From Hominimerdicola alba 8 (GTDB taxonomy: Bacteria > Bacillota > Clostridia > Oscillospirales > Ruminococcaceae), in NCBI RefSeq assembly GCF_000178155.2, contig NZ_ADKM02000130.1:1-64000 (forward strand): a DNA stretch of 64,000 bases, in the 5' to 3' direction. The notes beneath the pieces were generated by a model, which saw only the letters and a list, made by a program, of their open reading frames with translations, was not told the origin of the DNA and made no database searches. Position numbers and translations under genes: made by a program. This document shows, piece by piece, positions 3,988 to 59,521 of the stretch. How positions within the stretch are numbered: the first letter of the stretch is position 1; each line of letters starts with the position of its first letter.

Positions 3988-4113
3988 CGTGGCTATCCCG
4001 CTGACACACCACCAAAACGGCGGTTTTACAGAACTTAAGGCGGTTGGCGTATGGCGCTCAATTATCCTTTTGTTTACAGCATTTTCAGCTGGTGTGCTAA
4101 AGGGATAACCATA
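3988..4113 (+). mobile_element. MITE-like element, family A copy 1 (126 bp)
   Basis: Starts CGTGGCTATCCCGCTGACAC and ends with the partly inverted GCTAAAGGGATAACCATA. Flanked by ACATAAAT (3980-3987) and ATATAAAT (4114-4121), an 8-bp target duplication with one mismatch. It has the same length as copy 2 at 30720 and no coding capacity. Confidence 0.8.
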
Positions 4114-4160
4114 ATATAAATTGTCCGCAAGGATAATAAAAAACGAAAGGTGGATTTTTC

Positions 4161-4436
4161 ATGGGAAGCGCAAAAAGAAGACAGGAAGAATTTGACGATG
4201 CTCGCAACCGCGGCACCGAAATTCTGATCGAAGAGGGGGTTATCAGCCGCTGCGAACACCACGAGGAGATAGTCACCGACAACTGGGACGACTCAGGACT
4301 GAGCAAGGCTCAGGACAGGTTCGCAGCAGAGATGGCTGGTAAATTCACTCGCGAGGAATGCGATGAGTTTCTCGACAGCATCATCAAAGATGCTCCGAAC
4401 GATTGCCCGCTCTGCGAGAAATTCGAGGCAGAATAG
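4161..4436 (+). CDS. Small charged protein of unknown function
   Basis: 91 residues with a good site (AAAGGTGG) ten bases before ATG. No signal peptide or membrane segment. It is rich in Glu, Asp and Lys, with a CEHHEE segment in the middle and CPLCEKFEAE at the end. The single Cys and His pair plus the terminal Cys-x-x-Cys could bind a metal, but no complete zinc-ribbon pattern is present. I do not recognise a family. It stands alone: its own promoter lies upstream of a family A repeat and a bidirectional terminator follows. A cytosolic role is inferred only from composition. Confidence 0.6.
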   Translation: MGSAKRRQEEFDDARNRGTEILIEEGVISRCEHHEEIVTDNWDDSGLSKAQDRFAAEMAGKFTREECDEFLDSIIKDAPNDCPLCEKFEAE

Positions 4437-4446
4437 CATGCAAAAC

Positions 4447-4478
4447 AAAAGGTCTTCACCCCCGTGAAGACCTTTTTT
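4447..4478. terminator. Bidirectional terminator
   Basis: AAAAGGTCTTCAC pairs with GTGAAGACCTTTTTT around four bases. It serves the small plus-strand gene and the convergent permease gene. Confidence 0.9.
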
Positions 4479-4480
4479 CA

Positions 4481-7400
4481 TTATTCAACAGATTTCAGGC
4501 TCTCTGCCATGTTTATCTTTTCCAGCTTACTGCTCATGACCGCGTTCACGCCGATGTTGAACAGGAATGTCAGCGCGATGCTGTAAACAAAACTCATAGG
4601 AAGTATGCGCACCTTGAAGCTGACCATATCGACCACTATCTGCGCCATCACAAAACGGTGCAGGAGTACGCCCAGCCCAAGCCCGACCGCTATGCCCAGC
4701 GCCGTCAGGAAGATGTTCTCGCGCAGTACGTATGCCGCCGTTTCATTGCGGAAAAAGCCCAGCACCTTGATGGTAGCTATCTCGCGCTCACGCTCGGTTA
4801 TGTTGATGTTTGTCAGGTTGTACAGCACTATGAACGCCAGCCCCGCCGCGCTGACTATGACCAGCAGTACCACGTAGTCAAGACTGCTCATCGAGTCGGT
4901 CAGACGCTTCTTCAAGTCCTCGTAAAGGGTCACGTTTACCACATCGTCCAGCTTGCCGATGGCGGTCTGTGCCTTGTGGACATCTTCGCCCGCCTTGAAC
5001 CTCACATACGCTTCGTTCATATCTGTCTGCTCGCCCAGCTGACGTTCGACCGCTTCGTGCGGAACGAAAATGTAGTTGTAAACGTGGTTGTCAAATATCG
5101 CCTTTACCTTGAACTTCATCACCCGCATGTTTTCATCACGCAGAGTTATCTCATCGCCCGCTTTGACCTTGTATCGCTCTGCCACACTTATGCTCACCAG
5201 CGCTTCATCACCTGTGGGCGGCTCGACCGCTTCACCCTCAGTGTCGATGAAATTCATACTGCCCTTCAGTTCATCAAAATCAGCAGGAGCCATCAGGGTC
5301 ATGCTCTTTGTCAGATCTTTTTTGACAAGATCCCACGCCCCCGTGTAGATGCAGGCATACTCCGCACCCATATCGTCCAGCTTTTCAGAAAGCGAATGCG
5401 GCATGCCGCCGTCATCGCCCGCCTTGAAGTCCACCGAAGCATCAGCCGTCACTATCTCTTCGTACTGAACTTCCGCAAATCCCGATACCGAGTCTTTCAG
5501 CCCGAAGCCCGTCAACAGCAGAGCCGTACAGCCGCTTATGCCGACTATCATCATGAAGAAACGTTTCTTGTAGCGGAAAATGTTGCGTATCGTTACCTTG
5601 TGCAGGAATTTCATTCTGTTCCATATGAACGGAAATCTCTCCAGCAGTACCCGCTTGCCCGCTTTGGGCGCTTTGGGACGCATAAGCCCCGCCGCAGTTT
5701 CGCTCAGTTCATATCTGCACGACAGCCAAGCCGCACCCACCGAACATGCTATCGCGACCGTACCCGCTATCGCCGCCAGCTTCACATCGAACAGGTACTT
5801 TATGTCAAGTTCTATGTACATCAGCTTGTAGGTCATCCATATGACTTTCGGGAAAAGCACCGTACCCACGCCGTAGCCTGTCACACAGCCCAGCACCGCC
5901 GCACTGCCCGCATAGAACGTGAACTTGCCCATTATCGCCCGCTCGGAATATCCCAGCGCTTTCAGCGTGCCTATCTGCGTGCGGCGCTCTTCCACCATGC
6001 GGCTCATGGTCGTCATGCAGACCAGTGCCGCCACAAGTATGAAGAATATCGGGAATACCCTCGCCACCTGCTCGACTATCTCCGAGTCGTTCTCAAAGCA
6101 CGCATAGCCGATGTTAGTGTTGCGGTCAAGCAGGAAAACATCGGGCTTTTTCAGGTCACGAAGTTCTTTTTCGCCGTCTGCCAGTTCTTGCTCAGCCTTA
6201 GCTATCTCCTCATCAAAGGAGGTCACACCGTCCTGATACTCAGCCTCGCCGTCCTCATACTTTTCAAGACCATCTTCGTACTCAGCCTTGCCGTCCTTAT
6301 ATTCCTGTCTGCCTTTTTCCAGTTCAGCTTTGCCGTCCTCCAGCTGTTTTTTGCCGTCCTCATAATCACGCAAGCCCTTGTCGTACTGTGCCTTGCCCGA
6401 CTGATACTGCGCCAGCGAAGCCGAGTACTGTGCAAGGCCTTGCTGATACTGCGCCCTGCCCGCTTCCAGCTGAGCGCGGCTCTGTTCAAGGACTTCCCGC
6501 TGTGCCGAAAGTTCAGCCTGCCCCGCCGAAAGTTCTGCCTTTTTCGCATCAAGTTCAGCCTGTGCCGCCGAAAGCTGTTCAAAGCCGCCGTCAAGCTGTG
6601 CCTTGCCCGCCATTATCACGGCTGACTCTTCGGGCGGCAGCATGTCCGCCATGTCGAGGTATTCGCCGTACTGTTCCATGAACTGCGCATACTGCATATT
6701 CAGCGCCGCAGTGTTTGCATCTATCTCCGCCTGACCTGCTTCTATCTGCGCCGCACCGTCATCAAGCTGTGCCTGTGCCGCCGCCAAAGCCGCTTCGCCC
6801 TCACGGAGTTGTTTTTCGCCCGCATCTAACTGCGCCTTGCTTGCCGCGAGGGTCGCCGCCGCGCTGTCAAGCTGTGCCTTGCCGCTCACGAGTGTACCCT
6901 CAGTGTCATCGAGGGTCTTTTTGGCATCTTTCAGCTTCTTCTCGTTGTCGGCTATCTCTTTTTCACCGTCAGCTATCTCCTTTTCGGCATCGGTGAGTTT
7001 CTGCGCCGCATCGTCAAGTTCCGCCTTAGCATCATCAAGTTCCGCACGCGCATCGTCCAGCTTTTGCTGACCTTCTTCGCGTGCATCTTCAAGTTCCTGC
7101 CTGCCGTCAGCCAGCTTGTCCTCAGCTTCCGAAACTATCCTGTCATAGCGCTGTTCAGCCTGTTCTTCGGCAGCTTTCTCCCAGCTGTCCTCGCGGTCAG
7201 CCATATAGTCCTTGTAGTCGTCCGAATACACATCAAGTTCGTGGTCCAGCTTAACATAAAGTTCGGTATAAACTTCCATGTCAAAAGCCGACTTGTCAAG
7301 ATAGATATACCCGTTCACAGAACCGCTTCCGAGTGTGGTAGTGCCGCGCTCAAAATGTACGTAAGCAGGCGCGTATATCCGCCCGACCACCGTCAGTTCA

Positions 7401-56194: not shown

Positions 56195-58063
56195 ATGAAT
56201 AAGCGCAAGGGCTTTACTAAGATCATGTCGATGGCGGCAGCACTGTGCATCACCTTTACGGCGGTGAGCAGCGGCATCGACGCTACAAAGGCTGATGCCT
56301 ATTACGATGACAATGGCTACGGCTACGATTACGGCGGATATTCCGACTACGGTTATGACGGCGGCTATGGTTACGACGGTGGCTACGGCTATGACGGCGG
56401 TTATGGCTATGACGACGGCTATGGCTATGACGGCAGCTACGGCTATGATGGCGGCTATGGTTATGATGGCAGTTACGATAACGGCTATGATAATAACAAC
56501 GGCTGGACTGATCCCAATGCAGGCTGGACAGACCCAAGCACAGGCTACGACAACGGCTGGACAGATCCCAACGCGGGCAGTACCACAACTACCACCGACA
56601 GCACAGCTGATGACTCGTCATCGGCTGAGAACCCCACTTCGCCAAGCGATGTCTACGAACCGCTGACGGTCACTGATATTTCGGGCTACGCAGAGGCGCT
56701 GAGAGATATCATCGGCAAGCAGTCGGAACTTAAAGTCGAGATATCCGATGCCGATACCGCCATACGTGAAGAGGAAAAGATGCTCAAAAGCATCAAAAAG
56801 CGCACCGAAGAACTGGATAACGAACTGTATATCCTAAACAGATCCATGTCTTCGCTGGAAGTTCAGGTCGGCAGCAACAAGCGTGAACTTGAACGCATAA
56901 ACGACCGTATCGAGGACGGCACCGAAAGACTGAAAAAACGCCTGCGTGCGCTGTACCTGTCGGGGTCTGACTCGTATACCACAGTATTGCTGGAGTCTGA
57001 CAGCTTCTATGACATTCTGATGCGAATGGAACTTATCAAGCGTGTGGCTGCCCATGATGACAATATCATCGATGAACTTTACGGCTTGCAGGAAAAAGCT
57101 GAGGTAAAACAGGCAAATCTCGATGCACAGCAGGCTGAACTGGATAAGCAGTATGCTCTGTTCGACTCGAAAAAGTCGAAACTCGATGAGATATATAATT
57201 CATCGGCACAGGCAAGGGTGTTGCTTGAAGATAAGCAGAAAAAACTGAAAGAGCAGGAAGCGCAGTTCAATCTTGAAAAGATGAAAGCCGCGCAGGATCT
57301 CGGTGCAGTGCTGAAACAGTCCACAGGCACCACCTCTTTTGATGAAGAAGTTGCGGCTACTATGGCGCTTGCAGATGCCAAGCTGGAAGAACTGCATAAT
57401 GCCATTCGCGAGCGTATCAAGAATGATGAAGAGATACCTGAGGACGAACCGACCTATACATTCGCATGGCCTGTACCTCAGTGCTATCAGATAAATTCCG
57501 GTGTCGGCGCACGCTGGGGCACTTACCACAAGGGCATAGACATCGGCGGCGATCACGGTTATCCCATACACGCCAGCGAAACAGGCACAGTCATAATGAC
57601 AAATACCACCTGCACTCACGACTACGGCAAGTACGAGTCCTGCGGCTGCGGCGGCGGTTACGGCAACTATGTCATCATAGATCACGGCAACGAGTTCATC
57701 ACGCTCTACGGTCATATGACACAGGTGCTTGTCAACGTGGGCGATAAGGTTAAGCAGGGCGATATAATCGGTCTTATGGGCTCAACAGGCTACTCAACGG
57801 GCGATCACCTGCATTTTGAGATACGCTATCAGGGCTATATAGTCAACCCCGTTTACTATGTTGACCTTACCATAGATACCGAAAAAGGCGGCGCAGCGTC
57901 ACTGAAAGAAAAGAAAGACACAAGCGCCGATACCATAACAGTGGTCGAAACAGACCCTGACAGCAAGTCCGAAACTGTCTGGCTCGAACAGCCTGCCGAC
58001 TCAAAGTCGGAAAGTTCAAAGCCCGATGACTCAAAACGCGAAGACAGTTCGGGAGGAACATAA
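56195..58063 (+). CDS. Secreted coiled-coil M23 peptidase with Tyr/Gly/Asp repeats
   Basis: 622 residues. Signal peptide about 1-33, then a low-complexity block (about 38-110) built of YGYDGG and related six-residue units, then two WTDPNAG units; a coiled coil (about 165-400); an M23 domain (about 425-555) with HKGIDIGGDHGYP and DHLHFEIRYQG as the zinc sets and the same CGCGGGYGNYV insert as its neighbour; and a Ser/Lys-rich tail. Clearly a paralogue of the preceding gene, with the repeat block gained. Expected to work with FtsEX. Confidence 0.93.
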   Translation: MNKRKGFTKIMSMAAALCITFTAVSSGIDATKADAYYDDNGYGYDYGGYSDYGYDGGYGYDGGYGYDGGYGYDDGYGYDGSYGYDGGYGYDGSYDNGYDNNNGWTDPNAGWTDPSTGYDNGWTDPNAGSTTTTTDSTADDSSSAENPTSPSDVYEPLTVTDISGYAEALRDIIGKQSELKVEISDADTAIREEEKMLKSIKKRTEELDNELYILNRSMSSLEVQVGSNKRELERINDRIEDGTERLKKRLRALYLSGSDSYTTVLLESDSFYDILMRMELIKRVAAHDDNIIDELYGLQEKAEVKQANLDAQQAELDKQYALFDSKKSKLDEIYNSSAQARVLLEDKQKKLKEQEAQFNLEKMKAAQDLGAVLKQSTGTTSFDEEVAATMALADAKLEELHNAIRERIKNDEEIPEDEPTYTFAWPVPQCYQINSGVGARWGTYHKGIDIGGDHGYPIHASETGTVIMTNTTCTHDYGKYESCGCGGGYGNYVIIDHGNEFITLYGHMTQVLVNVGDKVKQGDIIGLMGSTGYSTGDHLHFEIRYQGYIVNPVYYVDLTIDTEKGGAASLKEKKDTSADTITVVETDPDSKSETVWLEQPADSKSESSKPDDSKREDSSGGT

Positions 58064-58069
58064 AATAAC

Positions 58070-58129
58070 TAAGACCGCTCGATTTTTTGCCATAGTTTGG
58101 CGGAATGATACGTGCGGTCTTTTATTTTA
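58070..58129 (+). terminator. Terminator after the second M23 gene
   Basis: AAGACCGC pairs with GCGGTCTT around a 35-base part-structured loop, then TTATTTT. Confidence 0.7.
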
Positions 58130-58145
58130 GGAAGGAGTTATAAAA

Positions 58146-59375
58146 ATGAAAAAAATGAAAAATCTGTTTGAATACGCTACCAAAGAACTTTCGCAGGACG
58201 CTTTTCTCCGCTGGCTCTTTGAAAACTACAAATGCGAAAAGGAAAAGGTAAGAGAAGCTGCTTACAAACTTCTCAACGAATTCTGCTGTCTAAAAATGAA
58301 AGACGGTGATATAACTGATCTAAAGACCTGCGGGCAGTATAAGAAAATTGATGTCACTGTCTGCTTCAAATATAATGACAGATGCTATCTTGTCGCCATC
58401 GAGGACAAAACTTTCTCTAATGAGCATGACCAGCTGAAAAAATACAACGATGCGCTCGAAAACAAAGAAAACAAATATGATATATGCGATAAATTTGAAT
58501 TAAGTGATGATGAATATAATAATTTAAAGATATTCAAGATATTCTATAAAACAGATGATGATTATTTCAAAGAAAAAGATATATGTGAAAAAAACGGCTG
58601 GAAACATTATTTCATAGATGATGTAAGCAAGCTGTTCAGTGGCATTTCCAACACAGGCAGTGAAATACTTGATGATTATATAGAACATCTTACTATAACA
58701 AGAAAAAAGGTTAACGAAGTATCTGCTGAACCGATAAAAAAATGGGATTATCGCAATTTCAGAACATACCTCCATAAAGTTATACTGCCGGAAGCGGAGA
58801 AAATATTTGACGGTAAAAAATGTAAGATGACACATGTCGGCTGGTACGCCTATGCGTCATTAGAATTCAAACATAATTACGATTTTTATAAGGTAAAGCC
58901 AAACAAGGAAACAGAAGATAAAATTAAAAAAAAAGAAACTGAAAATAAAATTACAAAAAAAGAAACTGAATTATCAATGGAGTTGAAGAGCTATGACACG
59001 GAGTCGAAGAACAGTGTCACGGAGTCGAAGAACAGTGTCACGAAGTCGAAGAACAGTGTCACGAAGTCGAAGAACAGTGACACGGGTTTTAAAGTCACAT
59101 TCAGATTGAAAGGAAAAGCCAAATTTGAAGATGACGAGATCATAGATGTGGAGTGCGACCCTAAACTCAAAGATAGCTTCAGGAATATTATTACTAAAAG
59201 CGAAAATTTTAATAAATACTCAAAAAAGTGGTGTGTTTCGAGCTCAAGCAAAAAACTTGATGAAAAGTTTTCAAATAAAAACCAACTTGATATTATGACA
59301 GCTAATATCGTGGCAGTGATAAAGGAACTCGCTGATATATTCGATGAATGCGAACATATTGATGGCATCAAATAA
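58146..59375 (+). CDS. PD-(D/E)XK nuclease superfamily protein
   Basis: 409 residues, AAGGAG before ATG. The opening LFEYATKELSQDAFLRWLFEN is the hallmark of the PDDEXK_4 group; the core has KIDVTVCF (Asp) and IEDKTF (Glu-x-Lys). Around residues 255-310 is a Lys/Glu/Ser/Thr-rich insert with KKETENKITKKETE and four repeats of SKNSVTE-type, encoded by 21-bp units. Base and codon use is more A-rich than all neighbours, pointing to acquisition from elsewhere. Such nucleases occur as defence genes or phage-linked orphans. It stands between two terminators. Confidence 0.78.
   Translation: MKKMKNLFEYATKELSQDAFLRWLFENYKCEKEKVREAAYKLLNEFCCLKMKDGDITDLKTCGQYKKIDVTVCFKYNDRCYLVAIEDKTFSNEHDQLKKYNDALENKENKYDICDKFELSDDEYNNLKIFKIFYKTDDDYFKEKDICEKNGWKHYFIDDVSKLFSGISNTGSEILDDYIEHLTITRKKVNEVSAEPIKKWDYRNFRTYLHKVILPEAEKIFDGKKCKMTHVGWYAYASLEFKHNYDFYKVKPNKETEDKIKKKETENKITKKETELSMELKSYDTESKNSVTESKNSVTKSKNSVTKSKNSDTGFKVTFRLKGKAKFEDDEIIDVECDPKLKDSFRNIITKSENFNKYSKKWCVSSSSKKLDEKFSNKNQLDIMTANIVAVIKELADIFDECEHIDGIK
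58995..59078. repeat. Four in-frame 21-bp tandem repeats in the nuclease gene
   Basis: Units of the form GTCACGGAGTCGAAGAACAGT; the first begins GACACGG, units three and four have CGAAGTCG. 21 is divisible by 3, so gain or loss of units keeps the frame and changes only a spacer. Confidence 0.88.
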
Positions 59376-59388
59376 GTCTGATACATAT

Positions 59389-59418
59389 AAAAAGGGAGTG
59401 CGCATGCGCTCCCTTTTT
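59389..59418 (+). terminator. Terminator of the nuclease gene
   Basis: AAAAAGGGAG.GCGC pairs with GCGC.TCCCTTTTT around AT. Confidence 0.9.
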
Positions 59419-59521
59419 GCGCATTCTCCCACCTCTGCAAACGCGGCAGGATATCCATAACGCTCTCTTCTTACCGCCGTTTCCTCAAAATTTGATTTCA
59501 GTGACTATCACGTAACAAGGG

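Follow-up and report, generated by a model that had tools for sequence, protein, structure and literature searches.

A solitary, probably acquired PD-(D/E)XK nuclease gene upstream of ilvB in Hominimerdicola alba 8 and its possible place among anti-phage genes

Between an M23 peptidase gene and ilvB, Hominimerdicola alba 8 carries a gene for a PD-(D/E)XK nuclease-like protein that is intact, conserves its catalytic residues, encodes a confidently predicted nuclease core and occupies a locus that is empty in relatives. We favor, with some confidence, the reading that it is a complete, horizontally acquired and solitary member of a broad nuclease family and that its function is probably anti-phage. 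The DNA analyzed, referred to here as the window, is a stretch of 64,000 nucleotides at the start of contig NZ_ADKM02000130.1, and the features discussed are collected in Table 1. In the mechanism proposed, the nuclease would cut DNA with a metal ion at D69, E86 and K88, the C-terminal domain could sense a phage- or DNA-derived trigger or else form an oligomer, and phage or other invading DNA would be restricted either directly or via killing of the infected cell.

Table 1. Features of the nuclease gene and its surroundings (positions in the window)
Feature	Position	Strand	Basis or remark
PD-(D/E)XK nuclease-like protein gene, 409 aa	58146..59375	+	ORF, relatives, AlphaFold with 73-row alignment
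Catalytic-core codons	58350-58352 (D69); 58401-58409 (E86-D87-K88); 58431-58433 (Q96)	+	invariant in 73/73
N-terminal nuclease domain and helical extension, aa 1-220	58146..58805	+	AlphaFold
C-terminal domain with a weak YbjN / secretion-chaperone likeness, about aa 194-409	58725..59372	+	VIA-align Z <=7.6
27-bp array in frame, 2.6 copies, 9-aa unit, aa 252-275	58901..58970	+	
21-bp array in frame, 5.1 copies, 7-aa unit, aa 278-314	58979..59085	+	
Approximate extent of the insert, judged against the empty site of L015 (G024)	58064..59388	+	ends inexact
Shine-Dalgarno-like GGAAGGAG	58130..58137	+	sequence; 8 nt upstream of ATG
Hairpin with U-rich 3' flank, immediately before the ribosome-binding site	58071..58121	+	z -4.3 for 58064-58150
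Terminator-like hairpin	59388..59419	+	z -4.4 for 59376-59425

The gene and its flanking signals

The reading frame runs from an ATG start through 409 codons with no internal stops. Its GC content is 0.341 and its GC3 0.395, the latter being the minimum among the 39 window ORFs of at least 200 aa (next lowest 0.53, median 0.597); the flanking peptidase gene and ilvB have GC contents of 0.507 and 0.526. A composition unlike that of the neighbors, as an earlier sequence-only reading had it, is thereby confirmed. AT-richness is typical of the nuclease family: the nuclease gene is more AT-rich than the mean of the flanking ORFs in 59 of 72 relatives' loci, and more AT-rich than every flanking ORF in 44 of the 72.

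The two hairpins on either side of the gene are both much more stable than shuffled sequences. The nearest relative, whose site is empty, lacks the upstream hairpin, and the downstream one is the equivalent of a hairpin located right behind the peptidase gene in nuclease-free relatives. The gene had been described as lying between two terminators; the two strong hairpins bear this out in part, but a simple terminator scanner flagged neither, and it is by inference that transcription would terminate at both. Transcription is probably weak and due to read-through out of the peptidase gene across the upstream hairpin, because a scan for sigma-70-like sites on the + strand flagged none from position 57900 to the nuclease ATG and because no WYL regulator gene lies beside the nuclease.

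Acquisition of the gene

Vertical inheritance within the genus is ruled out, since a direct protein search found the nuclease in none of the 28 other genomes of the genus (0/28). A family profile detected two distant members in the genus, in genomes G024 and G022, both on contigs other than those of the ilvB loci. In seven of the 27 other ilvB loci (L015, L016, L018-L021 and L041) the same peptidase gene is found within 1.5 kb before ilvB, with no room for a nuclease between them; the check covers that 1.5 kb, and a longer insert would mimic a peptidase-less locus. The nearest of these relatives, L015 (ilvB 98%), has an empty site, in which the peptidase gene gives way directly to the hairpin AGGGAGC...GCTCCCTTTT, with the ilvB promoter region after it. 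In the window this hairpin is placed behind the nuclease, and the insert therefore extends from about 58064 to about 59388; inspection by eye revealed no clear target duplication. Orthologues of normal composition were looked for at this locus in relatives and not found. That the gene is solitary and was acquired is supported.

The distribution is patchy. Members were detected in one of 100 relatives, in 7 of 391 genomes of the class and in 9 of 398 of the phylum; the gene's own genome is counted each time, and chance probably accounts for the short matches in G103 and G339 at the least. In a different species of the genus (L017, from genome G023), an ORF that reads as an insertion sequence transposase is located directly upstream of ilvB, in the same slot. 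It may be, given this ORF, that the intergenic site upstream of ilvB is a repeated insertion point.

The nuclease family and its conserved residues

Compared with the Pfam, NCBIfam and PADLOC models, the window protein has no matches, even at an E-value of 10. PDB sequence searches and a single-protein scan of genome contigs likewise found nothing. With residues 1-255 as the query, tblastn identified proteins annotated 'PD-(D/E)XK nuclease family' on plasmids in Caballeronia (E 3e-5) and Cetobacterium (E 0.4), along with 'hypothetical' proteins in Burkholderia (4e-5) and Paraburkholderia (2e-4), and a class-wide genome search added a further relative, L007, at 44%. A nine-row alignment of the first relatives formed the basis of a scan of GTDB genomes, in which 320 of 359 stretches bearing the search pattern encode relatives. 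Out of the 320, the 80 most similar to the window protein were kept, all of them carrying the pattern. A 73-row alignment leaves out eight of these (L065, L070, L071, L076, L082, L088, L102 and L106), which are short, cut off, over-long or have an odd start. The relatives come from Bacillota, Mycoplasmatota, Bacteroidota, Pseudomonadota, Campylobacterota, Myxococcota and other phyla. In the locus from Ruminococcus sp. YE71, the sole trace of the nuclease found is an 82-codon N-terminal stub (L076:6004-6252).

Seven residues (Q64, D69, E86, D87, K88, Q96 and Y100) are invariant in all 73 aligned proteins; the invariance of the ELSQD motif, close to the N-terminus, follows from its use as the search pattern. 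The intact core of Asp and Glu-x-Lys that had been read from the single sequence is borne out by the invariance of D69 and E86-D87-K88 across the aligned family members. At an E-value of 0.01, the Pfam model PF14281 (PDDEXK_4) is matched by 62 of the 73, and four of the first eight relatives pass its curated cut-off; the matched stretch in the relatives spans the region of the D, E-x-K and Q residues. In contrast, the window protein itself does not match this model at an E-value of 10, and its kinship is one of homology to the members rather than to the model. The PADLOC PDC-S26 models give a similar result: 63 of 73 match at 0.01 (best 9.1e-19), and the solitary lifestyle of the window gene would suit a one-gene system, but the window protein is below detection at an E-value of 10. 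By sequence comparison, then, the curated models miss the protein, but the family to which it belongs already counts as a defence candidate. The reach of the PDC-S26/PDDEXK_4 candidate defence family thus goes beyond its current models and takes in rumen- and gut-type Clostridia. In the tree, L042, L043, L044 and L057 form a group with the window protein (support 92/68), within a larger group that also contains L045 (99/97).

In the literature searched, neither PDC-S26 nor PDDEXK_4 was found by name, and no test of a relative came to light. Two papers treat PDC genes as candidates (PMC11514479, PMC13356809), and according to a third most PDCs lack experimental validation (PMC12988326).

No relatives were found in viral sequences, either by a single-protein scan of viral contigs, by an alignment scan of the same contigs (17 pattern stretches, none encoding a relative) or by a search of phage records with the window protein. 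In PHROGs there is one match, at chance level and over the repeats, to a tail-fibre family (E 1.2).

Predicted structure

AlphaFold gave a pLDDT of 35.9 from the single sequence; the model used instead, built with the 73-row alignment, has a mean pLDDT of 74.7 and a pTM of 0.76. Ten-residue means of pLDDT are at least 87 across residues 21-220 and fall to 33-65 over residues 231-380, where both repeat arrays are located. In the well-predicted part, a helix (33-47), three strands (56-65, 68-76 and 79-88), helices (96-105/107-117) and a further strand (128-135) form the alpha-beta-beta-beta-alpha-beta core of the PD-(D/E)XK superfamily. D69 opens the second strand of this model, and E86-x-K88 closes the third.

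Structural comparison of about residues 5-182 with VIA-align yielded AF1548, Cdn1, Card1, VC1899, Can2, FokI, HinP1I, EndoMS and MspJI (Z 4.7-7.6); these neighbors are mostly known PD-(D/E)XK nucleases, and all have Z below 8, the tool's caution level. The core aligns with those of the CRISPR-ancillary nucleases Can2, Card1 and Cdn1 over 101-111 residues (Z 4.7-7.3). However, only the nuclease part is matched, and the second domain of the window protein is C-terminal and weakly YbjN-like. Foldseek found no match in the PDB at an E-value of 0.001 or below, its top hit by E-value being an unrelated Arp2/3 chain, and in a viral library a single match falls below 0.001 (1.7e-4), to a phage protein named as belonging to the PD-(D/E)XK nuclease superfamily. 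Family conservation, the PDDEXK_4 matches of the relatives and the modeled core all agree with the initial assignment of the protein as a PD-(D/E)XK nuclease.

For the C-terminal domain (residues 194-409), the VIA-align matches include YbjN (7.6), AmyR (7.3), Spa15 (6.8), an Arp2/3 subunit (6.8) and a SycN-YscB chain (6.6). Together with CesT and further Arp2/3 subunits, these matches span Z 5.2-7.6, below the caution level of 8 and in a low-confidence region of the model, and no known sensor fold stood clearly out among them, an absence that carries little weight. We take YbjN, AmyR, Spa15, SycN-YscB, CesT and the Arp2/3 subunits to be one fold class, resembling secretion chaperones.

In-frame repeat arrays

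Both arrays fall in the last 40% of the gene, and the 27-bp array was absent from the list given in the sequence-only reading. The 21-bp array has 90% matches, no indels and a GC content of 0.505, well above that of the gene in which it lies. Its identity at a lag of 21 is 77 of 84 nt, as against a maximum of 48 across 1000 codon shuffles, and no further copy of the unit was found elsewhere in the genome with up to three mismatches allowed. Most simply, the arrays are slippage-expanded loops of the C-terminal domain, and they are probably incidental. The spacer had been called variable and in frame; both arrays do exist and preserve the frame, but the data contained no length variants of the window gene.

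The nuclease genes of 75 family members, the window gene left out, were compared with 209 size-matched neighboring ORFs. Arrays of any kind occur in six of the former and ten of the latter (p=0.38), so that repeats as a mark of the family are unsupported; one of the six, a 13-bp pair in L079, is probably a coincidence. Strong arrays (score of at least 90) occur in 3/75 and 1/209 (p=0.058), a hint, and only that, of a weak tendency in the family. Indel-free arrays with a period divisible by three are found in 4/75 and 5/209 (p=0.25). The nuclease genes of L063, L107 and L109 carry arrays of 18, 15 and 24 bp, all in frame and all in one loop, corresponding to about residues 138-161 of the window protein, and this loop differs in place from the arrays of the window gene. 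The M23 peptidase gene upstream has an in-frame array of its own, with 6.5 copies of an 18-bp unit (56354-56470).

WYL regulators near relatives

A gene encoding a WYL-domain regulator is present in 19 of the 80 relatives' loci and is directly adjacent to the nuclease (-1 or +1) in 11. In the 0.85 Mb that these loci cover, 0.6-0.9 such genes would be expected, so the observed number is at least twenty times the expectation. The underlying densities are 57 matches in about 77 Mb from 31 related genomes and 42 in about 38 Mb from 20 carrier genomes, with genome sizes rounded and summed by hand; 17 of the carrier genomes were chosen for a WYL neighbor, which raises the expectation. The profile that gave the figure of 19 derives from 16 WYL proteins encoded in these same loci, and Pfam and PADLOC provide independent checks. 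PADLOC WYL models account for at most 13 of the 140 nearest genes; for 111 far genes, where 25 of 115 families were shown, they do not appear. The contrast between near and far has a p-value of 0.0007 if no far gene matches and 0.004 if one does. Other defence genes are scattered among near and far neighbors alike, and WYL is the one family to stand out in the two sets of 25 families shown.

Ten WYL-nuclease pairs overlap or are at most 20 bp apart (L046, L048, L054, L056, L057, L074, L089, L095, L109 and L110). On the tree, the WYL label requires 12 changes, at least 11 of them by well-supported branches. Its clustering is matched by just three of 500 label shuffles, and near-copies aid such clustering. 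In L057, a member of the window protein's group of five, the WYL gene is 10 bp upstream of the nuclease; the loci of the three nearest relatives, L042-L044, have none. These three argue against the suggestion that the gene is the remnant of a larger cassette, as they too are without a WYL partner, although L057 does have one. In the window, a WYL profile derived from the family matched none of the ORFs of at least 60 aa, and the Pfam WYL matches of this genome are on contigs C48, C51 and C57, not on the nuclease contig (C7).

Known systems offer a partial model. WYL proteins are reported to regulate CBASS (CapW, PMC9122588) and BREX and defence islands (BrxR, PMC9122601), and the arrangement in the 19 loci is similar in that a WYL gene is near the gene for a potentially toxic effector. 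It differs from those systems in that the partner here is a single PD-(D/E)XK nuclease, and in that the window copy is without a WYL neighbor. The papers searched yielded no link between WYL proteins and this nuclease. With a WYL gene close by in 19 of 80 loci, a one-gene defence candidate gains both a testable regulator and a testable catalytic site, and the WYL link is the part most worth testing.

Defence and alternative explanations

The gene had been proposed to be a solitary defence nuclease; it is solitary, and a defence role is made plausible by the PDC-S26 matches of the family and by the WYL genes in relatives' loci. The hsd-type operons of three Bacteroidota loci and the HEC-07-like gene beside L042, described below, point the same way. 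A nuclease of housekeeping type or from a mobile element, serving repair, recombination or plasmid upkeep and often transferred with no defence role, is an unlikely but serious alternative. Function is not told by a catalytic core alone; relatives lie on large plasmids, L002 and L003 having parM and a second nuclease gene a short distance of a few genes away, and two of the nearest three relatives (L043 and L044) sit behind the housekeeping genes tsaE and a tsaB/tsaD-like gene. However, so patchy a distribution, even with some probable chance matches in the counts, is unlike that of a repair gene, and the WYL enrichment and PDC-S26 matches also speak for defence. It is more doubtful still that the gene is the effector half of a broken WYL-nuclease pair, on its way out after the loss of its regulator. 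Such pairs do exist in the family, including the adjacent WYL genes and the closely spaced one in L057, and a terminator-like hairpin upstream with no promoter flagged would be consistent with decay. Against this, the gene is intact and keeps all of its catalytic residues, and L042, L043 and L044 are likewise without WYL. Living without WYL must be common, because the tree requires at least 11 gains or losses of it.

The repeats lead to a different alternative, in which they are the functional novelty of the gene and changes in length by slippage tune the nuclease in the manner of a contingency locus. Unit lengths of 27 and 21 do preserve the frame, which also means that slippage could not switch the gene off, since every length keeps it. 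Four relatives have indel-free arrays with periods divisible by three, three of them in the one other loop, and the comparison of strong arrays leans in the same direction. This explanation is nevertheless very improbable: no length variant of the window gene is present in the data, the comparisons of all arrays and of indel-free arrays with neighboring ORFs show no significant excess (p=0.38 and p=0.25), and the neighboring peptidase gene also has an array. A further proposal joins several of these elements, such that the family would be a distinct immune module of a PD-(D/E)XK nuclease and a YbjN-like sensor, under a WYL repressor in many Bacillota and some Bacteroidota. The window copy would be repressor-free and hushed by an attenuator hairpin before its ribosome-binding site, with slippage in the two arrays altering the sensor. 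As a whole, this proposal is improbable.

Other neighbors of the relatives

Several further genes occur close to members of the family. In three Bacteroidota loci (L075, L081 and L083), the nuclease is located inside an operon that, from a reading of the ORFs, has the order hsdM-hsdS-nuclease-hsdR. Methylase- and specificity-like genes are upstream of the nuclease, which overlaps by 8 bp a large gene resembling that for a type I restriction subunit. In L042, a HEC-07-like candidate defence gene (4096-5967, PADLOC 1.8e-15) is 30 bp upstream of the nuclease relative. A GNAT-type gene is present upstream of the nuclease, between it and the WYL gene, in L053, L058 and L062 (checked with Pfam in L053 alone). 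In L060, L064 and L110, the next gene downstream of the nuclease reads as metallophosphoesterase-like.
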